From Sabellastarte sp. h YS-2021 (Eukaryota; Annelida; Polychaeta; Sabellida; Sabellidae): 64,000 nucleotides of DNA. The DNA is taken from NCBI GenBank assembly GCA_964017235.1, contig OZ024930.1, forward strand, positions 150,908,221-150,972,220. Reading direction: 5' to 3'. Both the position numbers and the translations under genes were made by a program. This document shows, piece by piece, positions 16,506-64,000 of this stretch; within the stretch, counting starts at the first letter, position 1, and each line of letters begins with the position of its first letter. A model generated the notes under the pieces. It saw only the letters and a program-made list of their open reading frames with translations. It was not told the DNA's origin and did no database searches.

Positions 16506-18588
16506 TTTTTTTTTTATTTATATTTTTTATGTACATAAAACCACTTGAAACAATAGAATACACTAGAAATGAACAGGAAAAAGACATGTAACATATGATG
16601 GAATACATCTCACTGTCAGAAAAAGCATATAGTATATATAGTGTTACTGATAAAGAACATGATAATGTATCCAAGGAAACACGAACACACACACATATAC
16701 AAAAAAAAAACAAAAAAACTTGAAGTATATAAAAACTTTTCACTGCACCAAGATCTACAGATTCCATTCAATTTTTCATGTAAAAAAGACTGAATGCTTC
16801 CCCAGTTTCTGATAAAGTCTGTATGTTTATCTTTCAATTTTGAGGCATATTCCTGGCTAAAATAAATTTCCTTTACAAAGCTCCCAAAAGTCTGTTGCGA
16901 TAATTGTCCATTTGATCTTGAAGCTTTGAAAATAAAAGATTTTGTAGCTAGAATTATAAGATTGATAATGTTTTTTTTTGTTATTGGAGTCAAAGATTCC
17001 AAAAATAATATCAGATGGGTTTATATTCAAATCCACTCCCAGACTAAAGTGGAGATTTCTTTTCAGATCTGTCCAGAATTTTTTAACGAAATTGCACTCA
17101 ATGAAGAGATGAGTAATGTTTTCAGTTTCTTTTTTGCAAAAACTACAGTTTGCGTTTACTTTTTGTTTTATCTTTACAAGGTACTCGTTTGTCCCAAGGA
17201 TTCTATTTAAAAGTCTATACTGGAACCACACCAGATCGTTGTCCTCAACAGTTTTAAAGCAATTTTGATAGATAGATTTCCAATCTTTCTCTGTTATTTT
17301 TGTCTTTAAAGCTTGCTCCCAGTGGGAGTAATATGAAGTCGGTTTTTTTACATTTATATTATTTAATCTGTTATAAAAGTATTTTGATCCCTTTTGAGAC
17401 CTCAGTAATATTTGAGTCTGACTGTGATAAATTGGTTTCATATGATTTCTATCATTTACTTTATTACAGAAAGCTTTAATGTACTTTATGACCCTATGGT
17501 ATTCGAGAAAGTTAGTTTTAACATTATAAATAGTGTTCAAGTCAGTTTCGGTCAAGATATCTCCATTACTAGTGAATAAATCAGCTATTGAAATAATACC
17601 GGCATTATACCATTTGGGGCAGTAGAGAAAATGGTTTGCTAATTCAGTGTTATACCAAATGGGTAAAGATAAGTCTTTTCTGTGATTGGATAGTCCCTCT
17701 ATAAGCGTACTCCAACTATCTAAAATTTCTTTCCAAAACCTATTGTCCATTTTTCTGGCTATTGTTTTTGAGTAATTTGATCCAAATAAAATTACCTTGT
17801 CATAAGGGCCAATCCAAGTTCTAGCTAGCTTAGCCCATGGAGCGTGTGGATTATGGTAAAGACGGCGTAACCAAGTAATTTTTAAAGCCGGGACAAAATT
17901 ATGTAAGTTGAGCATATTAAGTCCACCGTCTAAGTATTTTCTTGTCAAAGTTTCCCGCTTTATGTTGTCTGGTTTACCATTCCAGATGAACTTAAAAAAC
18001 GTACTTTCGATGGTTTTTAAGATAATAATTCCAGGAGAAGGTAGAGAGAGAAATAGATGGTTTAATTTTGATAAGGCAAAAGTTTTTATTATAGTTATTC
18101 TTCCTAATGGAGTCAAATATCTTTTGTTCCATACATGAAATAAGTGTTCCAGCTTTTTCATAATTGGCGAAAAATTAATATGTATCATTTCACTCAGGTT
18201 GACTGAGAAGTTAACCCCTAACAGATTGAAGGTGGTTTTTCCCCATGTTAATGGTTTACCAATATCAATTTCGTCTTTTGAGTTGCGCTTTTTACCAATC
18301 CATATGAGTTTAGTTTTGTCGGTGTTTATCTGCAATCCAGACATTGAACCAAAAGTTTCTAAGACATTTAGAGCAGCCAAGAGGGATTCCTTACTTCCGT
18401 TTAAGATTCGGGTTGTGTCATCTGCATATTGGGAAATTTTATATTCTGTTTTATTGATAAAAATACCTTTTATTGATGCATCATTTTTTATCAATAAATA
18501 CATTATTTCGGCACAGAGTAAGAATAGATAAGGAGCTATTGGATCCCCTTGCCTGCAACCTCGACCAACTGTAAAGAAATCTGAAAGT
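16506..18588 (-). mobile_element. 5'-truncated LINE with poly(A) and target duplication
   Basis: A non-LTR retrotransposon on the minus strand. A 10-bp duplication, ctaggtaatt, flanks it (16496-16505 and 18589-18598). Its 3' end is the T-run starting at 16503, which is a poly(A) tail on the element strand. The 5' end falls inside the reverse-transcriptase coding region, the usual result of incomplete target-primed reverse transcription. Confidence 0.9.
16857..18588 (-). pseudogene. LINE ORF2 C-terminal half: reverse transcriptase to zf-RVT
   Basis: The frame is open from the truncation point near 18588, upstream of the first ATG at 18503. It begins with GRGCRQGDPIAPYLFLLCAE, a reverse-transcriptase fingers/palm motif, followed by SQYADDT, the catalytic YADD box. 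The thumb and connection regions follow. Near the end CSFCKKETENITHLFIEC gives the Cys-Cys-His-Cys pattern of the zf-RVT domain. The endonuclease and N-terminal RT parts are missing. The C-terminal tail appears to change frame at a homopolymer (T-run near 16970-16979 on the plus strand), since the more typical tail reads in the overlapping minus frame 17002-16616. It is an L1/Tx1-like LINE remnant and not active. Confidence 0.88.
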
Positions 18589-18818
18589 CTAGGTAATTAA
18601 TTGAAAGGGGTGTAATCAGTATTATAAAAGGGACACTGGTCAAGGGCAAAGCTCTTCATTGTAGAGATTAAATGTATGTAAGGGTAGGATAGGTGTGGAA
18701 ATGTACTGTGGGGTGTTAGATGTTTAATTATATGTGATTATTTTTACTATTGTAGTCACTTTCGTTGTAGTTTAATATTTTGTCAATTTAATATAAAACA
18801 AGGCCACTGCCGCAGCAG

Positions 18819-46572: not shown

Positions 46573-46765
46573 TTTTTATTGTGCTACAATAGCTTACCAT
46601 GTGGAACTGAATGCTGATCTCGGATGGCCGCAGGCCTTGGCCAACGTCCAAGAAAAATAGACATCTATTCTGGACAGTGCCTCACAGGGAGGTGAGCCCC
46701 GTCGTGAAATACCGCATGATCCCCCTTCTTTCTCGTTGGCCGGCATTATGTACTCATAATGCATT
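46573..46765 (+). repeat. DIRS 2 left inverted terminal repeat
   Basis: It begins ttttattgtg. The strings ccatgtggaactgaatgctg, atctcggatggccgcagg and ctcgttggccg recur inverted at 53944-54100. Confidence 0.85.
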
Positions 46766-47999
46766 TTATTGCAAGGAAAGAAGTTTATGTTTTCATATGG
46801 ATATACTTGTCATTGGACACTGAAACTTTATCAGTTTCTTTATTTTATATCATAGAATCTTTATTTTGTGTCAATTCACAGAACAGATAAGTATATTTTA
46901 ACATATTTTACAACTTAAATCCACTTTCGGGTTCACGTTGTAAAGGAGAATAAGGGGCGACAACGACTCGTGTATACAGCTTATATACAGGAATATGTGC
47001 CTGTTTAAATCAAAGAAAATTAATATGTTAATGGTTTACTCCCTATCTGCTACATTATTTGACCATTTTAAGGGTTAAAATATGAAATAAAGCACGGAAA
47101 CTGAAATTCTCCGAAGAGAATCCTTGGGTAACCCCTTTGGTGACATAGTCTAGACAGCAAGTGCTGGGAGACTACAAACCATGTATGTAGCTTATTACAG
47201 GACCTTTACCTGTCAAAATAAAATTAATAAAATACTTTATCCCTTGTCTGCTACATTATTTCACCATTTAATGTGTTTAACCTTAGTAAAACGAGTCCTT
47301 GTTCAAAGAATTTAGAAATCGTCTTCGTCTAGACAGCAGGTGCTTGCAAAGGTCGTCATATGCTGTTGGGGAGACCTTCGTTTGGCAATAAAAAGCCGCC
47401 CCCTTTTCTGTGTTTTTTATTAAAGATCCAACATATATTTGATATAAATATATAAAATATTTGAAATATTTTACCTACAGGGTCTTTGTAAAATAGACGA
47501 ATATTAATGCGCAATGGCAAGACAGTTAAAACGTGAACAATTGTTTACGTAATGGCTGCCTTCTCTCCAATTGCTTGATTTTAACAACAAATAGTGGTTG
47601 TTTCTGAAAACTATCTGTTGAAGCAATAAATGGGAGGTTCCATTCTTCTAATATGGAAACCATACCATTCCAAGCGGGAGTGGATCAGATCTCTGTTTGG
47701 ATCTGAAACCTGGTTTGAACCTACACACCTGCTTTTCATCCGAGTTATAACCAACCAAGAGTTCGGATGCTCGGATGATTGAAGCCAGGTCCCAACCACA
47801 ACTTGACTTATCACACAAATACTAACCTTCAGAACATGGTCTAATGTTCGGATGATTGTTCAGATCTAACATCCGAATGTTCGGATGATGGTTCCAGATC
47901 AGAACTCTGAACAATCCTAGCACACACTTGGATAAAAAGTACACAAGTCTTGTCTCAAATATCACTTATTTGAGGCTTCAGTGCAAGTCAAAAAGTCCT

Positions 48000-48720
48000 C
48001 AAGCCCAAGAGGGCTTCTTCTGAACAAGGTCCTTCACTCAGATTGGACTCTGTATTTTATAGGGAAGTAGATTGCCTGACTTACCCCTAACCATATTCTG
48101 AGGACATTGAAATTTAGACAGTTTTTGGATCTTCCTTACCAGGGACAGTGTGCCTAGGTCCTCCACAGTCTGAGCTCTGAATGATGTAGCAGGCCAACAG
48201 GAGCTTATGCCAAGGGGCCCTTCAACTATGCTCCCACTCAGTCCTCAACTAAAGATGCTTTGATAAATTTAAACAGGACTTTCAGGCTGTTAATGTACCT
48301 GAAAATTAATCTATAAAACCCCTGGTTCAACTAGGGGGTATATTGGGACAACCTTGTTTTGAGAACAAATAACAAGATTACAACTCTGATTCAGAAAAAA
48401 AAAATTCCAGGAGCCAGAGATTATGAAAAGACCTGTGACTAGACATCCTGTATAAGAGGATCCTTATCTGACAGAGTTCCTTAGCCTGTCAAGTAAGGCC
48501 TTAGCCCACTCTCCAGAGAGACTTATACACAATGGGAAATTCAGGGGAGATACCAGAGCTTAAGAACTTCCCCATTCTGTCCCTTTCCTTTGTTCCATTC
48601 ACAATTAGTTAAGGAGGGACGAGAGTTCCTCCTCAAGGCACCCGTAAAAGCACTTAGGGTTTAGGCCCTATCAAATCAGCCCTTACACAGTCCCCATAAC
48701 TAAGAGACTCCCACAAGAAA
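48000..48720 (+). pseudogene. DIRS 2 plus-strand gag remnant
   Basis: Conceptual translation in shifting frames gives fragments matching the minus-strand gag of the same element: VFYREVD, GQQEL.PRGP, GQPCFENK. It also keeps a C-terminal part, SQLVKEGREFLLKAPVK, that the minus-strand copy lacks. Stops and frameshifts are frequent. Confidence 0.7.
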
Positions 48721-48934
48721 CACCCCTATGGGGTGCAATCCATTCCAAGCAGTATCCATCATTTTCCCTGGTAGGGGGAAATCGAGTAGAAGAGGCTCCG
48801 GAGGTCTTTTTTGACCTCACACAAAGGGACGAGGGCGTGGAAACCCCTCCTCCCAATGACTCCTTTCAGCATCCCTCAGTCCACCAGTAGGAGGTCTCAC
48901 AAGAGACTGGCAAACAGACAAATGCTCAAACAAC

Positions 48935-49600
48935 ATGTTAAACATTCTTACCAATGGTTACATTCTACCATTCAAAATTAGTCAGAGTTCCCCTGATTCA
49001 CTCAGGATACAAGGCCCATCAAGATCTAGCTCTGGCCTCTTACACCCAGTCTCTGCTGTCAAGAATGCAATAGAAAAGGTGGAAAATGTAAAATCTCTCA
49101 GGTTTTACAGTCACCTGTTTCTAGTCCACAAGCCTCACCAAAGGTGGAGGCCAGTGATAGACCTAGGCAGGCTCAACACCTTTCTACTTGTAGAAAGGTT
49201 CAAAATGGAAACTTCAGAGACCATCAGGGCCTCTCTGATTCCAGGGGAATGGGTGTCGTCGATAGACCTGTCTGTCGCCACCTTCACATCCCCTTCCACC
49301 AAAGCCCAAGGAAGTACCTGACACTGCTCTTAGGGTGGATAATAAATCAGGAGAATTCCGAACTCAAACCTATTCAAGTGTTTCTGTTTCATGGGCTACG
49401 AATACCACCTAGATTCAGCCCTTGTAAAACCCACTCGGAGAGATGGCTCAATCTTCAGGATCCGTTCCTACACATGAAATCAAAACATTTTTTGACTTGA
49501 AGATGTTTGATGTCGCTAACTGGGTTGCTCACCTCAACGGAGAAAATGATCCCGGAGGGATGCCATCACATGAGACCCTTTCAGTTTCACCTCAAGGAGA
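48935..49600 (+). pseudogene. DIRS 2 reverse transcriptase remnant
   Basis: RWRPVIDLGRLNTFLLVERF and GEWVSSIDLS match the N-terminal fingers of DIRS reverse transcriptase. A frameshift near 49265 moves the HIPFHQSPRKYL part to another frame. The palm with the YLDD box is missing, apparently deleted between about 49330 and 49430. The connection region (MSLTGLL equivalents) continues in another frame. Confidence 0.8.
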
Positions 49601-49689
49601 CTGGAGTTTTTCCTTAGTCATTGGACATCCTCCTTCCTTGGTCAGAGACCATTTCAGCTCACCTAGAGTAGTGGCAAATCCCTCAAACA

Positions 49690-50450
49690 TGATGAAGTGT
49701 GCAGACCTTCACCCCAAAGACCACAATACACAAATCTTTACAGACGCCTTAAACGAAGGTTGGGGCGCTCACTCAGAGCAAGTCTCTACAAAGGTCTGTG
49801 GTCAGACAGGGATATAAAGGCTACACATAAATGTTCTAGAGTTGAAGGCGGTTTCTCTGGCCCTGAAAAGGTTCAAGGACCAGTACCAAAACCAAACAGT
49901 GTTGGTTGCTACAGGCAACCCAACAGTTGTAGCCTACATAAACAAACAAGGAGGTACCCACTTGGTGAAGATGCATGCTCTCCTGTGGAAAATCATGATC
50001 TGGTGCCATCATTACCAGATAACTTTTAAGAGCCAGGCACATTACAGGGTGCCTCAATGTGATGGCCTACCAGTTCTATCCAGTCCAATAAACAGAATGG
50101 TCACTGCATTCGCAGATGTTCAAACAGATCTGTCAAGTGATTCACTCCTCATGTAGATCTATTTGCTACTCATCTGAACCACAAACTTCCACTGTTTGTG
50201 TCTCCAGTCCCACACCAAAATGCTTGGGGCACAGATGCTCTGAACATAATCTGGTCGGGTCTCTCTGCTTATGCTTACCCTCCCCTGGCTCTCCTTCATA
50301 GGGTGATCCAAAAATCAGGCAATGCAACTGCCTCATCATTGTAATAGGCCCAGGCTGGCCAGGGATGCCCTGGTTTTGGGACCTAGTGCAGCTCTCAACA
50401 GAGATCCCACTCCCCTTACAGTGTCAACAACACTTCTCAAAGAGTGCCAC
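49690..50450 (+). pseudogene. DIRS 2 RNase H and methyltransferase-like remnant
   Basis: QIFTDALNEGWGAH carries the first RNase H Asp, VLELKAV.LALK the Glu, and VLVATGNPTVVAYINKQGG has Gly where the third region of DIRS 3 has Asp (ATDNT). The segment further on, ending PGMPWFWDLVQL, matches the methyltransferase-like domain of DIRS polyproteins. Several frameshifts split the frame. Confidence 0.8.
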
Positions 50451-50499
50451 AACCAAGTGTTTCAAGCAGTCCACAACATTTCAACCTGCATGCCTGGTG

Positions 50500-51560
50500 T
50501 CTAGGAGTGGACAGCTCCAAGACCAAGGCTCCTCTGTGGAAGTGGCAGAGAGAATTGATGCCCCTCAAAGGTTATCAACAAGGACCATCTACAAATCAAG
50601 TGGGCCCTAATTGAGAAATGGTGCAGAGCAAATTTGGTGGATTTCTCCACTCCCTCTGTGAAACAAGTCTCAGACTTCTTCATGTACCTGTACCAAGATC
50701 AAAACAGGCGTCCATCTACCATTGATGGTTACAGGATGGCCTTTGTTGACATCTTGGGCCCAGCAGGGTTCCATATTTGTCAAAGCTCTAACCTTAACAG
50801 GTTACTTCCTAGCTTTCACAGGGATCTTCCCAAAAGTTCCAGGAATCTCCCAAATTGGAACTTTTCTGTTTTCTTAATGAGCTCATGAAGCACCCTTTTG
50901 AGCCCATGAAAAACAGAGACCTCAGACATCTTACACTCTAAACTGCTTTCTTGCTAGCTTTGGCCTCCGGCAAGCGCCGCAGTGAAATTTGTGCCTGGGT
51001 TGCAAACAAAGTATCTCATTTAGGCCAATGGGAAAAGGTAGCTTTGTTCCCCTCTTCAGACTTCATAGCCAAAAACCAACTAGCAAGAGAAGGTTCTCAA
51101 GTGTGTCTCTGGTGACTATCACTGCTTTGACTACCATTGTGGATAGACAATTCAAAGAAGACAGGACCATGTGTCAGTTCGGGCCCTGAGGTACTATTTG
51201 GATCAAACCAAAGACCTGAGAGGGTCTCGATTCCTACTCTTTATTTCCTTCTGGAAAGGGCATACCTCAGACTTCAGACCCGCTACTCTCTCTTCTTGGC
51301 TAAACAAACTATCCTACTTTGTTACATAACAAACAAGCAGACCAACAGTCCTTGGACTTGGTCCAAATTAAAGAGCATGACATTAGGGCCTTTGTGGCCT
51401 CTAAGGCCTTTTACGGTGGGATTTCAGTGGACCCAATCATGCAAGCTTGTCACTGGAAAACTCGCAACACATTTTCAAAGTTTTTACCTAAAAGACCCTA
51501 CTTAGTCAGACAATGACAACAATATGTATCTGGGTCCAGTCCAGTAGTAGCGACACAACA
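50500..51560 (+). pseudogene. DIRS 2 tyrosine recombinase remnant
   Basis: Fragments align with the recombinase of DIRS 3: VSDFFMYLYQDQNRRPSTID, GYRMA, FHRDLPKS, then a SGKRRSEI equivalent near 50965 that should hold the first catalytic Arg. The distal part reads SDFRPATLSSWLNK and then ends in multiple frames. This enzyme class integrates a circular DNA copy without making target duplications. The copy is dead. Confidence 0.8.
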
Positions 51561-52000
51561 AGTCCTAGACCCTTCCTCTCAGACTAGTTATCCTGTCTTT
51601 TATCTTTTATTTCAGTTACAGTATTTAACATGTATTAAGGACTTATTCAGGTGAACCCATAATCTCATCATAATATAAGGGTGGCAAGTTGATGACATTT
51701 TAAAGCCTAGGGCTTGTTTTCAGTCGTAGTGAAGCCCTTGGGGCTATATACAGTTTAAATGAGCACGGCTGCACTTACCCCTTCAAAATTCAGACATCCA
51801 GACAGCTTTACTACTGTCATTCATTCAAATATACTGGTTTTTGGCTTCTTATGGGCCCACTTCACGGAACTGGAGCACTGTAAGCGGGACTCAGACTGGC
51901 TTTTCTAAACATTCATTCTAATCTAATTAATTCAAAATCCAAAAAAAATTGACAAATACCTCCAGTCTCAGCTGTAATCCCTCCACCGTGTGGTTGGATT

Positions 52001-52076
52001 CAGCATTCAGTTCCACATGGCAAGCTGTTGTAGCGCAATAAAATTGAAAATTTTAATTACTTAAATGTAGCTTTTA
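52001..52076 (+). other. DIRS 2 internal complementary region
   Basis: cagcattcagttccacatgg ... gcgcaataaaa is the complement of the left terminus. It is joined through ttgaaa to attttaattacttaaatgt, the complement of the outer right terminus. The layout is as in DIRS 1. Confidence 0.85.
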
Positions 52077-53758
52077 TGTCCCCTAGGTGTGGTTGAAGGA
52101 GGGTCATCTCGGCCTTGCGTCTTAGCAGGCCAGTGTTGCTCATGGTATACAGCTCCCTCTGGAGGATATGGGCTACAGATTTGCTGAGGCAGGCTAAGGC
52201 CCTCTGCTGAATAAGGATTCTCTTATTCATGATCTCAAAATAGTCACAGGCGTTGTCATAACCATGCCTGACAGCTCTTTCAGGATTGGCACCCTTCTGG
52301 ATTTGGCTTTTAACCCTCTTAAAGGTAGCCTTGATACTGTGCTGACACTTCTCCATAACAGTGTTACAAGAAGATGCAGTGTTAGCGAAAGTAGCTGTGA
52401 AGTTGATGGTAAAGAGATTCTGCCTAGCTTGGTGTTCAAGTTTCTTGAGAACTTGTAGGGGAACCTTGCCCATAGGGGCCTCAGAGGGCTTAGGAGAAAC
52501 ACAGATCTTGGCAAAATCTGTATTGAACTCCTGGATTTTGTCTTCAAAATAAGGTTGTCCCACCTTGTAGTATTTGGCCGTTGAAGCCAGGGGTTTGATA
52601 TATTTACCCTCAGGTAAATTAAAGGTCAAGAAATCTTGTTCAAATTTCTCAAAAGCATCTTTGAGAATGGGATTTAAAGGGAGCATAGCAAAGGGGCCTC
52701 TTGGCCTAAGCTCCTGTTGGCCTTTCTCGTCGTCTAGGCCTAGCACAGTGGTAGAGGACCTAGGTGGGATCAGGGAGCTCAAGGATCTGCCTAAAAGTTT
52801 CCACTTCCTCTGTATATTGTGAAGGGAGGTCAGACATGTCTACCTCCCTGTAGAAAACTGGATCTGTGCTATCCTGTTGATGTTCAGGCTCAGAAGGAGC
52901 CTTTTGTTGAGGTTTTGTAGACTTTTTAATAGGGGCAGAGGACTGATCTTCCTCTGAAGAAGATGACTGAGAATAGTACTTTGCCCAAACCTTGTGTTTT
53001 TTCTTGTCTGAGTGCTTCTTTGCTTTAGAACACACCCTTTTAGGTTGTTCCGAGTTGTCCTCGGAATGAGGATCCGGATTCAAGATCAGTGTGTTTGGAA
53101 GCAGTGTCGGACTGGACACTTTGAGTGAATTTTGGAGGAAGTGGAGGACCATATACGTCCTTGTCCATTGGTTGAGCATCCGAGTGATCAGATGTCCAAG
53201 CCCGAACTGAAGTCTGAGTCATGGTTGGGTCTGGAAGTTTACTTGTTCTAGCTTTTGTAAAGAGGTGGAGGTCTTATCTACCTCCGCCTCGGAGGCTTTT
53301 TTCATAGACTGCATTTCGTCTTGGAGAAACTTCATAGCCTCCAGCATGGACGCTTGAAAAACCCCCATTTGTTGCTGAAGTTGGATGTTAAATTGATTAC
53401 CCAGGGATTTTTCTAGTCTAGTCTCTATTTTATTCTGCAAAGCAGTACCTGGGGTTGGTGGGACAGTTTGAGGAGTCTTCAAAGACAAAGACTCAAAACG
53501 TAGGGGTTGTGGACGTGGAGGTGAAGAAAATAAATTATCAGCAGCACCCTCAAGGTCTGCATGAGAGCCAGAAAATGCCTCCACATCATCACCCAATAAG
53601 TCCAGATCATCTTCCTTGCTAGTACTACAAGGATCCGATGCCTTCTGTTTCCTGACATACCGATGTCTGTGTTTAATCATAATTGGCTGTTCCTCAAAGA
53701 AACAGAAGTGACGGCATTTAGCTGGTCTGGTCTTGGCACTCGTTTGGTGGGTAGACAT
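52057..53758 (-). pseudogene. DIRS 2 minus-strand gag, truncated
   Basis: The start codon at 53758 is followed by an N-terminal basic region and a Gln/Met-rich coiled-coil-like stretch (FNIQLQQQMGVFQASMLEAM). Next comes an acidic/Ser-rich section and then a conserved core (PRGPFAMLPLNPILKDAFEK, VPLQVLKKLEHQARQNL, CDYFEIMNKRILIQQRALAC). The frame shifts three times (near 53220, 53060 and 52765). The C-terminus ends abruptly in the internal complementary region: the last residues (IKATFK) are encoded by the complemented right terminus, and the tail kept by the plus-strand gag is missing. Confidence 0.8.
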
Positions 53759-53943
53759 TTTTACTGCAATAAAAATCCGAATTGAAACGCGGAAAATACT
53801 TATCCTGCAATTTCCAAACTAAGACAAAATGATCTATACAATAAAATTAAACACATGGCAGAAGAATAACATCCAACAATATGTATTTCCTGAGAAAACA
53901 ACAGTGATATTGTAAGCTTAAGTTCAAATGCTTGCTAGTCGTG

Positions 53944-54135
53944 CGGCCAACAAGAGAAGAAGGGTTAGACACGAGATTACACTGTTTTGGTACACTATCA
54001 GCACGTGGATCCGGTCAATACTAAACGTCTATTTTTTTTTGGATGTTGGCCGGATGCCTGCGGCCATCCGAGATCAGCATTCAGTTCCACATGGTGAGCT
54101 TGTAGCTTATAAAAGCTACATTTAAGTAATTAAAA
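53944..54135 (+). repeat. DIRS 2 right inverted terminal repeat
   Basis: Inverse of 46573-46765, plus an outer extension (agcttataaaagctacattt) shared with the internal complementary region, so this is a true right terminus and not merely an inverted left one. Confidence 0.82.
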
Positions 54136-54284
54136 CTTTGCAATTTGTTTGGTCTTCATATAGTTTACTGATTACCTCCCTAATGATTGTGTTGTGTTGT
54201 CTATATAAAAGATGTCAAAAATTAATTGACATATGAAATGATTAAACCTTAATATATGTTAATATAACTGCAAGTAGAGCCTCA

Positions 54285-54601
54285 TTTTATTGCGTTAATA
54301 CATCCTATCCAATGGACAATAGCTTATCCGGTCGGCGTAGACCGGCCCGCCAAACGTCAGAAAAAGACGTCCTGTGTCTCCACTAGCAGGTCGGTCCGTA
54401 GCACCAGTGCACTCGCCAGATGGCGTGTCGTACTTCCTTCCTGTCTAGACAGAGTGACGTCATAGCATCTTTTTCGTTTGGCGCGAACCAGTGCACAGTG
54501 GAAAATTTTATCTCTGCCAGAAATTGTGTTTTTTGGAAATTATTGCTTGGAAATCGTCTTGAATCTTAGTATTCTAAAGTTACATCTCTGTTTTATGAAC
54601 T
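54285..54601 (+). repeat. DIRS 3 left terminal region and leader
   Basis: The outer ttttattgcgttaat matches the start of DIRS 1 and 2. The inner part is GC-richer and has repeated gaccgg-type strings. Its inverted partner is outside the window, so the repeat length cannot be set. It should contain the promoter. Confidence 0.6.
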
Positions 54602-56746
54602 ATGTCTTCACCTGGCCAGAAGAGGGGGAGTTGTGGCCATGCAATGGCTATTTTCGACGGACATGCTTTCTGCGCACGTTGTAGGGAAAAGGGGAAAGGT
54701 GAGGAACCGTGTATTGCTAACAAAGACACTGCAGACTGTACTCTCTGTAATTCATTCACCCCTGAGCAGCGTGCCCAGATCTCTACTCCATCGTATAAAA
54801 TCAAGAAAGAAAAAAGGGAGGCAAAACGTTTGGATAATCCCCAACCCACGGACGAACTTGTAGACCCTTCCAGTGTCTCCGTTATTGGGGTTGTTAGTGG
54901 GCCTAGTGCTGATAAATCGCCTGCCCCACCTGATAAGAAACTCAAAAAGGAAAAGCCCCCTGCTAAAACAAAGAAATCATCTTCATCTTCAACTCTCTCT
55001 TCTGCCACGGAAGAAAAGTTTTCAGCCCTTGAGGACAAATGGGTGGATCGTTTCAACAGGCTAGAAGCCTTACTCTTAGCCAGATCCATAGAACCTACCT
55101 TCTCTTCAGATGTCAGGGTCGCTCCAGATCACCCTCCACCAGGAAATGTTTCACGTGACTCTGAACCCTTTTTTCATCCAACTGATAAGTCTCTGGACAT
55201 CTCTCAGTGCACTGGCCCAGACTCTAGTGCTGCCTTGCAGCCGTCGGCCGGTAAGCTACACTCAGAGCATGCATCACAAGGTTCTTCAACTGTAAAGCGC
55301 ACTGGCCCAGACATTATTGCTTCACAGCAAAAGTCGGCCGGTAAGCTGAAATCTAAAGTTAACATTGCTACACAAGGGCGCACTGGTCCAGACACCGCTT
55401 CTCAGAAGCATAAGTCGACCGGTAAGCCTAGCTCAGACTCTCACCGACCTTCAACTCTTCCTGCTGAGACATCCGACCACCCTCCCTCCGACCGACCTTT
55501 GAGTTCAACCAGCTCATTTTCACCGACCCCTCAGACGGGCAGAAAGGACAGTATTTCTAGTTTGGACTCGGATACCCAGAGTCAGCTGTTTGACACTCCT
55601 CCGGTGGAACTTTTTGTAGAGGAGGGAGATTTGTCCGACGACCAGGAATTTGATCAAGAACTCCCGACGTCAGAAGAGCAAACCTACCGGGAAACTATGA
55701 GAGGCATACGTTCCTTCATGGGGTGGTCGCATATTCCTGATATGGACAGCTCAAACCCATCTGACGACAATCCCTTCGCGGGTCCCAAGGCTCCGGCACC
55801 CAGCAAGATTTCAGTACAAATACCTACAGAGGACTGGCTCTGCCGAAAATTAGCTAAACTCAACCTTAACATGACTGAGGGATACCCCTCCAGAACCACT
55901 GAAGCCGGTAGCCTTCCTATGGACCATTTCCTCCGGCCTCCAAAACCACAGACTAAATGGTATGGTCTTTACTCCGACCAGCAGTTAGATCCAGTCACAG
56001 TCGCCAGTTGGCATACAGGCCCGGCTAAGTTGAATTAGAGTTTTGGGAGGATAGCCAGGAAAGCCGCCTTGGCAGCTACACCCCCAGCTTCGCGTAGAAT
56101 TTCACAAGATACACTTAGGCGTTGGGAGAGGACGGCCAGAGAGGCCTCGGTAGTGTGCAATCAAACGGCCAGCTTCAACCGCTGTTTGTTTAAAGTACAA
56201 GGGGACATGCAAGCACAGTTGAAAGTTAAACGTTCAGACAATAAAGGCAAAATCTCCAAGAAACTATCCGACACCTCTGAAGAATTACAATTCCTTATGG
56301 AATTCAACTCTAGCATCACACAGGCTACAGCCAAGGCAATGGAGCACTTGACAGATTTTGTCTTCATTACCATGGGAAACCTTGCCTTGGCCCGTCGGGA
56401 TTCATATCTCAGCCACTTAAAGAACGGAGTGAAACCAGACACGTTTGCTGCCCTTAGGACCGGCCCACTCCATATAGCCACTTTGTTTGCAGAAACAGTT
56501 GTTAAAAAGGCTGAGGAGGAGATTGCCCTGTATGATAACAAGAGTCACCCAACGGCCACCACTTCACATACTAGGCAACGTTTCCACCCATATGAACGCC
56601 TTGATAAGAAGCAGGAGAGTCGGTCGGAGGGAAAACAGGACAGACCCGCCTGGAAGAATATCAACAGGCGGCCTTTCAAGCGAGGCAGGGGAAAAGCCTC
56701 TAACTTCTCTTCCCGACCTTCCCGCGGTCACCAACACTATAAATGA
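54602..56746 (+). pseudogene. DIRS 3 gag-like ORF1 with one in-frame stop
   Basis: An ATG at 54602 opens a frame that is intact to 56746 except for a TAG at 56036-56038. The N-terminus is Cys/His-rich: CGHAMAIFDGHAFCARC, then CIANKDTADCTLC, suggesting a zinc-binding module. The middle is Ser/Pro-rich with three copies of a TGPD...S(A/T)GK repeat (55209-55440). The part after the stop is helical and ends in an Arg/Lys/Gly-rich tail (RRPFKRGRGKA) that could bind nucleic acid. The stop may be a nonsense mutation or a read-through codon. ORF2 overlaps or closely follows. Confidence 0.82.
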
Positions 56747-56810
56747 CAATTATTATGTACACAAGGATACAAGCCAGTTGCTGACCCGGACTTTCCGCAC
56801 AGACCATACA

Positions 56811-57856
56811 ATGAACAATTTATTGACTGTAAATGTAAAGCCTCTTGTTGTCAAATTTGTTCCTTCTGCACCCGGGCTTCCACAAAGGAAAGGGATAAGT
56901 CCCGGTGTGCCAGAATGTCAATTAAAAAAGTGTCAATTAAAATCTGTGAAAAGTGTTTCTTGTGTCACTCCATTGTCTTGTGCTAATTCTGTTTCAAATG
57001 TACCAAATGCTGCCCTCACTCTGCCTGTAGGGGCCAGACTGCAAATATTTTGGCAGACTTGGCTGGACCGGGGTGCCGGTCCCAAAGTAGTTCAAATCCT
57101 GCGAGAGGGCTACACCCTCCCTTTCCGGATCCGACCAAACCTCATAAGAATTCCTACAGTCGTAAGCTGCTATGCCAATCCTCTCAGGAACAGCTACCTG
57201 TTAGAGGCATTGCATCAGCTTATCGACAAAAATGCTGTAGAACCGGTTTCCCATCAGACCTCGTTGGGGTTTTACAACCGACTCTTTTTAGTCCCCAAAC
57301 CCAACAACAAATGGAGACCTATATTGGACCTCAGCCATCTGAACCAATTTCTCAAAGTAGAGAAATTCAAGATGGAAACACCGGAAACCATCAGAACCTC
57401 CCTCCTACAAGGGGAATGGGTAATGTCGGTGGACTTCAAGGATGCTTATTTCCACATACCGATACAGAAACAGTCCAGGAAATACCTGAGATTTCAGGTC
57501 CAAGACCAGACCTACCAGTTCAAAGCTCTTCCCTTTGGTCTGTCCACGGCACCCATGGAATTCACTGTAATCACAAAGGAAGTCAAGCTAATGGCCATGC
57601 ACAAGGGTATAAGAATCCACCAGTACCTAGACGACTGGTTAGTAAGAGCCAAATCCCCCCAGGCTTGTCTCCGACATACTCAGATGCTGGTCAAAATATG
57701 CCAGGATCTAGGCTGGTTAGTGAATTTGGAAAAAATCAGAGCTGGAACCCAAACAAGTCTTCAACTTTGTAGGCTACCAGTTCGACCTCAAGTCCGGTCG
57801 GGTCCGACCGACACCGGACCGGTGGCAAAGCCTCCAGGGAAAGATACAAACATTTT
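56811..57856 (+). pseudogene. DIRS 3 reverse transcriptase, frameshifted and interrupted
   Basis: From the ATG at 56811 the frame gives a linker and then a full reverse transcriptase: KWRPILDLSHLNQFL, VDFKDAYFHIP, ALPFGLSTAPMEF and the catalytic YLDDW at 57624-57638. At the A-run 57730-57735 the homologous frame shifts by one, consistent with one extra A, and the true continuation runs in the other frame (FNFVGYQFDLKSG). Just after KIQTF the frame is cut by the Helentron-like insertion, and it resumes at about 62343. The upstream open part of the same frame (from 56487) overlaps gag and need not be translated. Confidence 0.88.
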
Positions 57857-58289
57857 TATGTCAGCTGACTTGTCAGTCAGCTGACATTATGTCGTCACTC
57901 TGCGGCGTGGGCGTACGCGTACGCGTCCGCGTGAACAACTTCTCCTCCAAAACTACAAGGCCTAGAGACGTGCTGTTTTTTTTAAAAGATACCTTATCTA
58001 TCGAGGATGAAAAATTGTTCAAGGCATGCAAATCTGTCTGTTCGTCTGTTTGCTAGAGACATTACAAGGGGGGTACCCCCACCAAAAGTGTGAAAATTTC
58101 AACACTTAATCACAATTTTCTCAGTGACTATTGCAGGGATTTCTCTCATATCTTGCATATATGTACTAGGCCAGAGGTAGATTCTCTTGTGTGAGTATGA
58201 GACCTGGATCTGTCTTACTTTTTTTTTAATAAATTTTTTTAATAATTTTTAATGCATTGAAATTCATGAAATCATGCACAAAATCATTT

Positions 58290-61240
58290 ATAACTTGAAA
58301 ACTGTTGCATCTAGAGCATTTTGTTAAAATATGTTATTCAGCTACTTTTTTCATAGCTACAATATGGTGAGTAAGTTGGGTGCCTGTCTCAATAGCTAAG
58401 TGAGTAATAGCTACTTTTGGGCTTTTCAGTAACTTCCATCATGAGTAGAATCACTTGTAACTTAAAAACTATTGCATTTAGAGAATTTCGTATAAATATG
58501 TTATTCAGCTACTTTTGGGTCAGCTATAACATAGTAAAATTTTAGACCTGTAGCTCATGGCATAGCTGAGTAATAGCTACTTTTAGGTTATCACTGTTGA
58601 GTAAATCGCTTATAACTTCAAAACTATTGCATTTAGAGAATTTCGTATAAATATGTTATTCAGCTACTTTTGGGTCAGCTGTAACATAGTAAAATTTCAG
58701 ACCTGTAGCTCATGGCATAGCTGAGTAATAGCTACTTTTAGGTTATCACTGTTGAGTAAATCGCTTATAACTTGGAAACTATTGCATTTAGAGTATTTTG
58801 TTTGAATATGTTGTTCACCTATTTTGGGATCAGCTATAACATAGTGAAGTTTCAGATCTGTGGCTCATTGCATAGCTGAGTAATAGCTACTTTGAAGTTC
58901 TCACTATTGAGTAAATCGGTTGTAATTGGAAAACTATTGCATTTAGAGAATTTCGTATAAATATGTTATTCAGCTACTTTTGGGTCAGCTATAACATAGT
59001 AAAATTTCAGACCTGTAGCTCATGGCATAGCTGAGTAATAGCTACTTTTAGGTTATCACTGTTGAGTAAATCGCTTATAACTTGGAAACTATTGCATTTA
59101 GAGTATTTTGTTTGAATATGTTATTCACCTATTTTGGGATCAGCTATAACATAGTGAAGTTTCAGATCTGTGGCTCATTGCATAGCTGAGTAATAACTAC
59201 TTTGAAGTTCTCACTATTGAGTAAATCGGTTGTAATTGGAAAACTATTGCATTTAGAGAATTTCGTATAAATATGTTATTCAGCTACTTTTGGGTCAGCT
59301 ATAACATAGTAAAATTTCAGACCTGTAGCTCATGGCATAGCTGAGTAATAGCTACTTTTAGGTCATCACTATTGAGTAAATCAGTTGTAACTTGAAAACT
59401 ATTGCATTTACAGTATTTTGCTTAAATATGTTGTTCACCTACTTTTGGGTCAGCTATAACATAGTAAAATTTCAGACCTGTAGCTCATTGCATAGCTGAG
59501 TAATAACTACTTTGAGGTTCTCACTATTGAGTAAATCAGTTGTAATTGCAAAACTATTGCATTTAGAGAATTTAGTATAAATATGTTATTCAGCTACTTT
59601 TGGGTCAGCTATAACATAGTAAAATTTCAGACCTGTAGCTCATGGCATAGCTGAGTAATAGCTACTTTTAGGTCATCACTATTGAGTAAATCAGTTGTAA
59701 CTTGAAAACTATTGCATTTACAGTATTTTGCTTAAATATGTTGTTCACCTACTTTTGGGTCAGCTATAACATAGTAAAATTTCAGACCTGTAGCTCATTG
59801 CATAGCTGAGTAATAACTACTTTTAGGTTCTCACTATTGAGTAAATCAGTTGTAATTGCAAAACTATTGCATTTAGAGAATTTAGTATAAATATGTTATT
59901 CAGCTACTTTTGGGTCAGCTATAACATAGTAAAATTTCAGACCTGTAGCTCATGGCATAGCTGAGTAATAGCTACTTTTAGGTCATCACTATTGAGTAAA
60001 TCAGTTGTAACTTGAAAACTATTGCATTTACAGTATTTTGCTTAAATATGTTGTTCACCTACTTTTGGGTCAGCTATAACATAGTAAAATTTCAGACCTG
60101 TAGCTCATGGCATAGCTGAGTAATAGCTACTTTTAGGTTATCACTGTTGAGTAAATCGCTTATAACTTGGAAATTATTGCATTTAGAGTATTTTGTTTCA
60201 ATATGTTATTCACCTATTTTGGGGTCAGCTATAACATAGTGAAGTTCCAGACCTGTGGCTCATTGCATAGCTGAGTAATAGCTACTTTGAAGTTCTCACT
60301 GTTGAGTAAATCAGTTGTAATTGGAAAACTATTGCATTTAGAGTATTTAGTATAAATATGTTATTCAGCTACTTTTGGGTCAGCTATAACATAGTAAAAT
60401 TTCAGACCTGTAGCTCATGGCATAGCTGAGTAATAGCTACTTTTAGGTTATCACTGTTGAGTAAGTCACTTATAACTTGAAAACTATTGCATTTAGAGTA
60501 TTTTGTTGCAATATGTTATTCACCTATTTTGGGGTCAGCTATAACATAGTGAAGTTCCAGACCTGTGGCTCATTGCATAGCTGAGTAATAGCTACTTTGA
60601 AGTTTTCACTGTTGAGTAAATCAGTTGTAATTGGAAAACTATTGCCTTTACAGAAATTTGTGCAAATATGTTATTCAGCTACTTTTGGGTCAGCTATAAC
60701 ATAGTGAAATTACAGACCTGTAGCTCATGGCACAACTGAGCAATAGCTATTCTCAGGCACTGACTGTTGAGTAAATCAGCTATAACTTGAAAAATATTGC
60801 ATTTGGAGTATTTTGTTAAAATATATTGTTCACCTACTTTGGGGTTAGCTATAACATAGTGAAATTACAGACCTATAGCTCATGGCATAGTGGAGCAATA
60901 GCTATTTTCAGGTTCTCACTATTGAGTAAATCAGTTGTAACTTGAAAACTATTGCATTTACAGTATTTTGCTTAAATATGTTGTTCACCTACTTTTAGGT
61001 CAGCTATAACAGTGCAAAAATTCAGACATGTAGCTCATTGCATAGCTGAGTAATAGTTACTTTGAGGTTCTCACTCTTGAGTAAATCAGTTGTAACTTGA
61101 AAATTATTACATTTAGAGTATTTTGTTTAAATATGTTATTCACATAATTTTTGGTCAGCTATAACATAGTGAAATTGCAGACCTCTATGTCATGGCATAG
61201 CTGAGCAATAGCTTCTTTCAGGTTCTCACTGTTGAGTAAA
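58290..61240 (+). repeat. 155-bp tandem array, about 19 units
   Basis: ttattcagct or ttgttcacct starts at 58501, 58656, 58811, 58966, 59121 and onward with an exact 155-bp step. Units alternate between slightly different versions (cagctacttttggg and cacctattttggg), hinting at higher-order repeats of two or more units. Related to the 134- and 143-bp arrays and to 21955-22137. Confidence 0.95.
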
Positions 61241-61249
61241 TCATTGTAT

Positions 61250-62060
61250 CCAACCTGTAGGAAATCATGGGCTGGGAATCTATTAATATGGTCCGATTTG
61301 ACCTTGGAACCCTCCTTCAAGGTCAAATGAGGATAGCCAAACATAAAAGTGCTTATAACTCGCTTATTATTGGTCCTAGAGGTTGGAATGAAAACCAACC
61401 TATAGAAAATCATGAGCTGGGAATTTTTTGTTGTGGTCGGATTTCACCTTGGACCCCTCCTTCAAGGTCAAATGAGGATAGCCAAACTTAAAAGTGCTTA
61501 TAACTCACTTATTATTGGTCCTAGAGGTTTCGAATGGAAAACCAACCTATAGAAAATCATGGGCTGGGAATCTTTTGGTGTAGTCGGATTTGACCTTAGA
61601 CCCCTCCTTCCAGGTCAAACGAAGATAGCCAAACTTAAAGTGCTTATAACTCGCGTATTATTGGTCTTGGAGGTTTGGCATGGTAAACCAACATATAGGA
61701 AATCATGGGCTGGGATTCTTTTGGTGTGGTCAGATTTGACCTGGGACCCCTGCTTCAAGGTCAATTGAGGATAGCCAAACTTACAATTGCTTAGAACTCG
61801 CTTATTATTGGTCCTACAAGTTTGGGATGGTAAACAAGCTACAGGAAATCATGGGCTGGGAATTTTTTTGTGTGGTCGGATTTGACCTTGGACCCCCTCC
61901 TTCAAGGTCAAACAAGGATAGCCAAACTTAAAAAGTGCCTATGACTCACTTATTATTGGTCCGAGAGGTTTGGGATGGTAAACCATCCTAAATTCTTTGG
62001 CTGGGAATCTTTTGGTATGGTCAGATTTGACCTTTGGACCCCTTCTTCATGGTCGAACGA
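61250..62060 (+). repeat. 147-bp tandem array, about 5.5 units
   Basis: Units share ggaaatcatgggctgggaat, cttcaaggtcaa and cttattattggtcctagagg with the array in element I and with 22140-22565. These copies are more diverged from each other than the 293-bp dimers in element I. Confidence 0.9.
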
Positions 62061-62342
62061 GGATATTGCATTTATAGTATTTCTTTAAATATTTTTAACC
62101 TACTTTTTACACTTAAACAATTACCTTGTTACTTTATTTCATAATACCATTTGCAGGGCACAACTTTTTTGTCCTTTTCTTCTGTCAGCTTCGGAATATC
62201 TTTCGAACATGCTGTTCAGTTAACATTTACTGTATTTCTGTACAGCCCTTTCCCTGATAATTATGCTTTCCTCTCATTATCACCATCACAATCAAAAACA
62301 TTCAGTCAGCTGACACAGTGCCCGTTCACGGGCACTCTCCTC

Positions 62343-63548
62343 TTGTTGTTACTACCGGCCTGTCCGGCCTGGCAATTCATGTCCTTGATAGGTCTGTTAA
62401 CAGCCACAGAGAAGCAAGTTCACTTAGGCCGATTACACATGAGACCCATTCAGTGGCATCTCAAAAACGACTGGAGGGTACCGGAATCCTTAGAAAAGAT
62501 CATCCCTCTACCCAGATCGCTGCACCCACATTTATGCTGGTGGCTGGAAGAAGGCAATGTCCTCCAAGGACAACCATTACACCCCATGAGGCACGCTCTG
62601 CAAATATTTACAGACGCCTCAAAAGAAGGGTGGGGCGCTCACTTAAACGAGTTCACGGCAAGAGGGTCCTGGTCGGTGCCAGAAAGCAAGCTGCACATAA
62701 ACTACCTAGAACTCAAAGCGGTTTTTCTAGCCCTCAAAGAGTTCCAAAGTCTCTGTGTGGACAAAATAGTCCTAGTGGCAACCGACAATACTATGGTGGT
62801 CGCTTACATAAACAAAGAAGGAGGCATGAGGTCAGGCCCACTCTATGCCCTCCTGTGGAGAATCTTGACCTGGTGTTCCCAGAGACAGGTGACCCTAAAA
62901 GCCCGGCATATTCCGGGCCACCTCAATGTGATAGCAGACAAGCTATCCAGACTGGGTCAGACCATCCAAACAGAATGGTCCCTCCTACCAGAAGTTTTTC
63001 AACAGCTATGCACACAATGGTACCGGCCTCAGATAGACCTATTTGCCACGAAGTTCAACCACAAGTTACCTCAGTTTGTCTCTCCAGTACCGGACACCCT
63101 GGCTGTAGCAGTGGATGCACTCACTCTGCCATGGGACGATCTGGATGCATACGCCTTCCCACCGACCGCCATATTGGGCAAAGTGGTGGAGAAGCTGCTG
63201 GACTCCCCGTGCAAAAGACTCATTCTGATTGCCCCGGGGTGGCCCAACATGCCCTGGTTTTGGGACCTAGTGGCCATGTCCAGTCGGGCCCCTCTCAGCC
63301 TGCCCAACCTGCCCAATCTGTTAACACAACCCTTCAATCAGATCCCTCACAGAAATCTGACAAATCTAAATCTCCATGCCTGGCTCCTAGAGCCGCAAAA
63401 ATCAAAGAACAAGGTTTCTCTGAGGCAGTGGCAGCAAGAATTGAGGCTCCTCAAAGAAAATCAACCAGATCAGTCTATGAGGCAAAGTGGACCCTTTTTA
63501 CAAAGTGGTGCGACACTAATCAGGTGGACTTCAGGTCACCACCTATAA
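62343..63548 (+). CDS. DIRS 3 RNase H and methyltransferase-like part of ORF2
   Basis: The segment continues the reverse transcriptase connection (ACPAWQFMSLIGLLTATEKQ). RNase H follows with QIFTDASKEGWGAHL (Asp), YLELKAVFLALKEF (Glu), VLVATDNTMVVAYINK (Asp) and ARHIPGHLNVIADKLSR (His, Asp). After it, QIDLFATKFNHKLPQFVSPV ... DAYAFPPTA ... LILIAPGWPNMPWFWDL corresponds to the phage-type N6-adenine methyltransferase-like domain of DIRS polyproteins. The usual NPPY/DPPF motif is replaced by AFPPT, so catalysis is doubtful. All expected RNase H acidic residues are present. The open frame begins upstream at 62151 inside the Helentron-like insertion; the part before 62343 is not DIRS sequence. Confidence 0.88.
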   Translation: MLLLPACPAWQFMSLIGLLTATEKQVHLGRLHMRPIQWHLKNDWRVPESLEKIIPLPRSLHPHLCWWLEEGNVLQGQPLHPMRHALQIFTDASKEGWGAHLNEFTARGSWSVPESKLHINYLELKAVFLALKEFQSLCVDKIVLVATDNTMVVAYINKEGGMRSGPLYALLWRILTWCSQRQVTLKARHIPGHLNVIADKLSRLGQTIQTEWSLLPEVFQQLCTQWYRPQIDLFATKFNHKLPQFVSPVPDTLAVAVDALTLPWDDLDAYAFPPTAILGKVVEKLLDSPCKRLILIAPGWPNMPWFWDLVAMSSRAPLSLPNLPNLLTQPFNQIPHRNLTNLNLHAWLLEPQKSKNKVSLRQWQQELRLLKENQPDQSMRQSGPFLQSGATLIRWTSGHHL

Positions 63549-64000
63549 AGTCGGTGGCTGACTTCCTGATGTACCTCTTGGAGGAAAAGAAGTTGCAGCC
63601 CACCACCATCGATGGATACAGGTCTGCCATTGCTGATAAACTAGGTGATACAACACTCAATATCAGCAAAGATCATAATCTCACTCGTCTCTTGGAAAGC
63701 TTCCACAGAGACAGACCCAAAGGGCGGAGGGGAATACCTTCCTGGAACCTTTCCCTGGTACTACACCAGCTGACAAAGCCCCCTTTCGAACCTCTTAGGG
63801 AGGCATCTCTGAAGCATCTGACCTTCAAAACTGTCTTCCTTTTGGCCCTCGGCTCTGGCAAAAGAAGGAGTGAGATCCATGCATGGCAGCATAAGAACAT
63901 CAGACACCAGTCGGACTGGTCTAAGGTGTCTCTGTTTCCATCTCCCAGCTTTCTCTCCAAGAATCAGCTGGCCAAGGAGGGTCCGGAGAGTGTAGCCCCG
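63370..64000 (+). CDS. DIRS 3 tyrosine recombinase, partial
   Basis: A frame different from that of RNase H is open from about 63370 to the window end, overlapping the previous frame by about 60 codons. It reads KSVADFLMYLLEEKKLQPTT then IDGYRSA, the SAM-like core-binding part. FHRDRPKGRRGIPSWN and FLLALGSGKRRSEIHAW follow, the latter holding the first catalytic Arg. The HxxR and Tyr motifs lie beyond the window. There is no clear ATG, so it may be reached by frameshifting or a spliced or internal start. It would integrate the circular DNA copy. Confidence 0.85.

Follow-up and report, generated by a model that had tools for sequence, protein, structure and literature searches.

The DIRS copy analysed here is most probably a genuine chimera of two subfamilies that was formed once and has since decayed. 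It lies in a window of 64,000 nt, the whole stretch of DNA that was analysed (G000:C4:150908221-150972220, on OZ024930.1, in a 1.79 Gb genome; W marks a position in this window), and spans approximately W46574-54146, about 7.6 kb. Up to W52077 the plus strand carries a left terminus, a decayed gag, an RT/RNase H region, a putative recombinase region and an internal complementary region (ICR). From W52078 on there follow a minus-strand gag with its leader and then the right terminus. All of these parts had been given in this order in a preliminary description and are present in the sequence; the right end, placed there at 54135, is corrected to approximately W54146. The features are as follows.

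46574-46738, plus strand: left terminus (inverted terminal repeat), A type; from inverted repeats and relatives
46739-47400, plus strand: 5' leader of the A element; approximately 76-85% to other copies
47401-48640, plus strand: decayed A-type gag region; homologous to other copies and, within W48052-48534, to the minus-strand gag
48641-51594, plus strand: decayed RT, RNase H and putative recombinase region of the A element; from relatives and tblastx to the neighbouring element
51595-51999, plus strand: 3' untranslated region of the A element; from identity to relatives
52000-52043, plus strand: left half of the ICR, complementary to the left end; inverted repeat
52037-52077, plus strand: right half of the ICR or, on an equal footing, right extension from a truncated B element in inverted position; inverted repeat
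52077/52078, no strand: junction 1, where ICR or right-extension sequence gives way to inverted B gag; no bases in common with either continuation
52078-53702, minus strand: B-type gag, 3' truncated; 88-94% to 10 B relatives
53703-54054, minus strand: start of the B-type gag, 5' leader and inner terminal repeat; B-type letters
54055-54065, no strand: junction 2, tract identical in both types, in which B-type letters give way to A-type letters; diagnostic letters
54066-54146, plus strand: outer right terminal repeat and right extension, A type; A-type letters

Structure and coding content of the element

Known DIRS elements carry all of their genes on one strand. The whole element departs from this arrangement through its minus-strand gag, and the A part alone conforms to it. 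The terminal repeats are inverted and complementary (W46591-46635 with 54056-54100, 98% over 45 nt). Each half of the ICR pairs with one of the outer ends, the left half with the left end (W46574-46617 with 52000-52043, 93%) and the right half with the right end (W52037-52077 with 54109-54149, 88%). The outer ends of the chimera are one left and one right terminus, with TTT at both. Its coding regions are fragmented, and the minus-strand gag consists of three open stretches in two frames. An Rfam scan of W44000-56000 gave no match.

The identity of RT and RNase H is predicted from a neighbouring, better preserved DIRS-like element, to which the A body is similar by tblastx (E 9e-152) and whose ORFs match Pfam RVT_1 and RVT_3. 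With this support the earlier RT and RNase H label stands. The recombinase label had been assigned from position and gained no profile support: the putative tyrosine recombinase region is conserved with the neighbour in tblastx, and a Pfam scan of five A ORF fragments returned no match at E 0.1.

The minus-strand gag is homologous to the plus-strand remnant, as had been proposed. A comparison of the two gives 69-71% identity where they can be aligned (W48052-48369 with W52858-52537, 69% DNA identity, E 1e-24; W48421-48534 with W52261-52141, 71%, E 2e-10), and tblastx gives E 1e-21. It was likewise correctly described as lacking its tail, because the gag of B copies continues past the equivalent of W52078 (6/6 copies compared). 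Of seven aligned B copies, six have approximately 96 nt near the start of the gag that the window lacks at about W53702; the aligned part of the other copy, L016, leaves this stretch uncovered. By eye, the absent segment looks Cys/His-rich. L031 also lacks a similar stretch of gag, with different edges. Splicing was considered as the origin of this gap and rejected by eye, as the edges have TTTC in common and are at odds with GT-AG.

The inverted piece belongs to a second subfamily

The minus-strand piece is of a second subfamily (B), and the body and the outer right terminus are of type A. The inverted piece (W52078-53702) has 88-94% identity to 10 B relatives and approximately 69% to the plus-strand gag, which rules out an inverted copy of the element's own 5' half. 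The A body (W49180-51594) is 86-93% identical to 22 relatives; its nearest relatives, at 91-93%, include L009, L032-L035, L038 and L040, whereas six loci with B-type gags (L014, L015, L017-L020) reach 87-88%. For the A 3' end (W51595-52077), 11 relatives fall into eight at 91-94% identity and three at 82-84%. The body was named A on the basis of these two sets of identities. Twelve loci of 9.5-9.9 kb (L009-L020) have the usual one-strand order in the parts covered, several of them being cut by the end of the locus or internally deleted (e.g. L009, L013, L014, L016).

The preliminary description had suggested a template switch or recombination between two antiparallel copies as a possible origin of the layout. 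The chimera itself and the fit with inverted termini hold up. The inverted half is of the B subfamily and not the element's own, and the outermost right sequence is right extension rather than an inverted left end, which makes the right tip an ordinary right terminus.

Borders of the inverted piece

Border 1 is exact, at W52077/52078, a position that corrects the preliminary description. Five of the six other copies shown continue with ICR-like sequence after W52077 (the sixth, L011, diverges from W52073), and past W52078 all six B copies shown continue in gag; at the join the window has zero bases in common with either continuation. Since W52037-52077 can be assigned to neither A nor B, border 1 could equally be a plain non-homologous join. 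Border 2 falls within 11 nt of the terminal repeat that are identical in the two types (W54055-54065), with B-type letters through W54054 and A-type letters from W54066. These A letters are found in six of the seven aligned A right termini; L032 is B-like there. The L032 right terminus has A-type inner and B-like outer letters, another exchange inside the terminal repeat, and such an exchange is therefore not special to the chimera. A nested insertion of one DIRS in another would comprise a complete insert with both inner termini; here there is a single common right repeat and the B left tip is absent.

Relative age of the A and B parts

Private changes were scored where the window differs from a position at which at least 80% of relatives agree; two tallies differed by one or two sites. 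They number 66/2165 in the A body, 12/443 in the A 3' end, 62/1523 in the B gag and 15/299 in the B leader. Unmasked, the rate is slightly higher in B than in A (P 0.03, from the totals of the other tally). With CpG, TG and CA sites masked, the counts are 53/1768 in A and 48/1280 in B (P 0.26). Ten A relatives taken at random give a median of 3.11% private changes in A, the closest ten give 64/2231 and the farthest ten 151/2193. Because the A figure varies with the relatives chosen, the comparison is read as B being not younger than A. Late acquisition of B by an old A copy is not supported, as private changes are equal or slightly higher in B.

The junction is found once among the scored matches

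With a 120-base junction query, the window alone spans the junction among the 40 scored of 941 candidates; the other matches end within one base of it, and no separate copy of a truncated B element is present among them. With a 701-base query, 0/56 other matches listed cross the junction (40 scored of 7391 candidates). We also examined 46 other ICR loci, chosen by ICR similarity, with 336-1500 downstream bases each; the sample includes related types such as L022 and L026 (3' end 83-84%). A right terminus lies 127-350 nt downstream of the ICR in 37/46, and none was found in that stretch in nine (L023, L028, L038, L049, L050, L058, L059, L061, L070). The ICR and the right end form an inverted repeat, mostly spaced by approximately 200 nt. 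A gag in the window's orientation downstream of the ICR was found in 0/46. L024 has a gag 963 nt past the ICR in the opposite orientation, and L058 an RT fragment 535 nt past it. We compared 21 B gags from 20 loci: in 20 cases RT follows in the usual direction, and for the last one, in L037, the sequence covered was 194 bases. In a search for an empty site, each flank of the chimera matched the window alone.

These results bear on the suggestion that the layout marks a mobile, bidirectional DIRS subfamily. The genome search proposed for the junction of recombinase end, ICR and minus-strand gag yielded no further copy among the scored matches, and the subfamily is unsupported because neither a second scored junction copy nor such a gag at any of the 46 ICR loci was found. 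With its outer termini and ICR in place the layout might formerly have been mobile; on these counts we nevertheless regard a mobile subfamily as extremely improbable. A junction seen once among the scored matches, the normal arrangement of B gags and a B part that is not younger than A together point to one old event between subfamilies.

Truncated relatives and a candidate breakpoint hotspot

A pattern search for ICR or right-extension sequence with a non-standard continuation gave 28 matches at the window's base, all of which were read. Sixteen continue with TG: eleven are left-terminus-like, four run into the terminus of another family (L103, L107, L109, L111) and one is gag-bearing (L090, in which gag homology starts 188 nt from the join with the right extension). 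The other twelve are the window, L058 and L059, L087 (ICR followed by other DNA), L081, L084 and L088 (internal DIRS sequence), and L082, L083, L085, L086 and L089 (variant termini or ICRs). RT homology starts 31 nt from the join with the right extension in L081, the RNase H region lies directly at the join in L084, and sequence 3' of the recombinase region abuts the right extension in L088. Microhomology at the join amounts to TTTAT common with the parents in L084, two bases in L088 and none in the window. Because the pattern selected them at that base, these truncated loci are uninformative on breakpoint preference.

A breakpoint hotspot at the ICR palindrome was suggested by L058 and L059 and by the 28 matches as against 7 at a control position, where one internal fusion was seen (L094, RT). 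Two further positions gave raw counts of 20 and 44 matches; with 20, 28, 7 and 44 over the four positions, the hotspot was dropped.

In L103, L107 and L109 the right half of the ICR runs into another family's terminus, with TTTTAT in common, and in L111 the other family's terminus stands beside right-extension sequence, with the 3' end absent; these four are mosaic ends between families. L058 and L059 (G000:C2:16287050-16292000) are two ICRs approximately 4 kb apart, cut at the window's base; both continue into one and the same repeat sequence, which is not DIRS. L113, L114 and L115 are DIRS copies that lack the ICR and right repeat and end in right extension. L114 and L115 have a left terminus and right extension and no ICR match, with internal DIRS sequence leading to right extension and then flanking DNA. 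L113 has gag and RT and then right extension; no left terminus was detected for it in the sequence examined, and its flank resembles the A leader over 68 nt.

Origin of the chimera

The reading that we prefer, at about an even chance of being correct, is that an A-type copy took up a 3'-truncated B element by way of the B element's ends. The A stretch from the ICR to the middle of the right terminal repeat would have been replaced by the inverted B element, made up of left terminal repeat, leader and a gag cut and closed by right-extension sequence. The ICR complements both ends of a DIRS element. An inverted element bounded by a left terminus and a right extension therefore finds matching sequence in A at the ICR and at the right repeat, and this match at both edges makes capture by homology possible. 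Such homology would explain why an inverted 5' piece lies exactly there with normal outer ends. We infer both that the B piece was truncated beforehand and the route of its capture. A truncated circle may have integrated at the ICR, which carries circle-junction sequence, with the doubled repeat lost later, or a double exchange may have taken place. Counted in favour of capture were the subfamily assignment, the common tract at border 2, the end of ICR sequence at W52077, truncated elements elsewhere, the uniqueness of the junction among the scored matches, the usual order at the other ICR loci and B gags, and age parity, together with the targeting of existing DIRS-1 copies by DIRS-1 (as given in the excerpt of PMC5633606). 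Counted against it were the lack of a separate truncated B copy among the scored matches, the possibly non-homologous border 1, the unmasked B excess, an A count that varies with the relatives chosen, the absence of a hotspot and the L032 exchange.

Three other origins were weighed against capture. Template switching during cDNA synthesis, in which A and B nucleic acids in one particle were exchanged at the repeat and the ICR and entered the genome in one integration, is somewhat unlikely. A B part not younger than A fits a chimera that was formed no later than integration, TTT stands at both outer ends, one of them a left and the other a right terminus, and the ICR has been proposed as a template for the ends (in the part of PMC5633606 consulted); such switching nevertheless requires copying of the opposite-sense strand and a jump without common bases at W52077/52078. 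Break repair in an integrated A copy, whose right repeat would have invaded a B left repeat and copied about 2 kb before a non-homologous join at the ICR edge, would leave exactly one homologous and one non-homologous border, and the inverted repeat of ICR and right end, mostly about 200 nt apart, also speaks for it. Much later repair would, however, give a younger B part, which is not what we observe, and no close donor was found: the best match in one search (40 scored of 7391 candidates) has 95% over approximately 320 nt, and that in another (40 scored of 7007 candidates) has 90% over 1625/1823 positions. We consider break repair quite unlikely. An assembly misjoin between two loci is conceivable in so repetitive a family; it is very unlikely given that the 64-kb window has no N runs, that each flank matched the window alone and that border 1 has no common bases, unlike a typical repeat collapse.

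A wider form of the capture reading is that the ICR of integrated DIRS copies is a landing site for related circles, as it carries the circle-junction sequence. This is a tentative and fairly unlikely proposal, under which the chimera would have been left behind when a truncated B circle entered an A ICR and the doubled repeat was later lost. If true, ICR landing would yield inverted composites with usable outer ends, and subfamilies could exchange gag. If ICRs are circle targets, a step of the DIRS cycle called not fully proven in the excerpt of PMC5633606 becomes testable genome-wide.

Relation to known elements

As far as the consulted part of PMC3266345 goes, the chimera resembles DIRS1-like retrotransposons in its inverted termini, its right extension, the two ICR halves complementary to the ends, its TTT start and AAA circular junction (as for AcDIRS2, XtDIRS2 and XtDIRS3) and its RT and RNase H homology. 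It differs from the elements in that part in the opposite-strand second gag between ICR and right terminus and in its length, approximately 7.6 kb against 3974-6283 bp for 28 elements. A DIRS-in-DIRS insertion (Cappello 1984, as cited in the excerpt of PMC5633606) is similar in that one DIRS sequence lies inside another, but the chimera contains a 5' part only and full inner termini are absent. L113-L115 are alike in that internal sequence joins right extension at the window's base, the base by which the search pattern selected them, and unlike in being located outside an A-type ICR. Among the titles listed by a literature search none dealt with a DIRS gag in antiparallel position, which is no proof of absence.

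Inverted ends and an ICR can thus let the front end of a related DIRS element be built in backwards while the termini look normal. Such a construction can mislead annotation, which would report a 'second gag', and it may be a way for gag to be exchanged. No role can be demonstrated for this lone, decayed copy.

Neighbouring and other loci

A second, better preserved DIRS-like element lies on the plus strand approximately 140 bases to the right of the chimera (54286-64000, its start set by eye), with ORFs at 54599-56038, 56478-57884 and 62145-63548. Its pol contains two satellite-like arrays, of 155-bp units (58442-61248) and 146-bp units (61250-62065). L080 (G000:C11:45749500-45757500) is a relative that contains a 2.7 kb inverted duplication with arms 99.9% identical, so that two antiparallel RT regions stand approximately 1 kb apart; the duplication is a recent foldback, a conversion or an assembly artefact. 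Elsewhere in the window, the minus strand of 16857-18596 holds an open frame of 579 aa that is LINE reverse transcriptase-like by eye.
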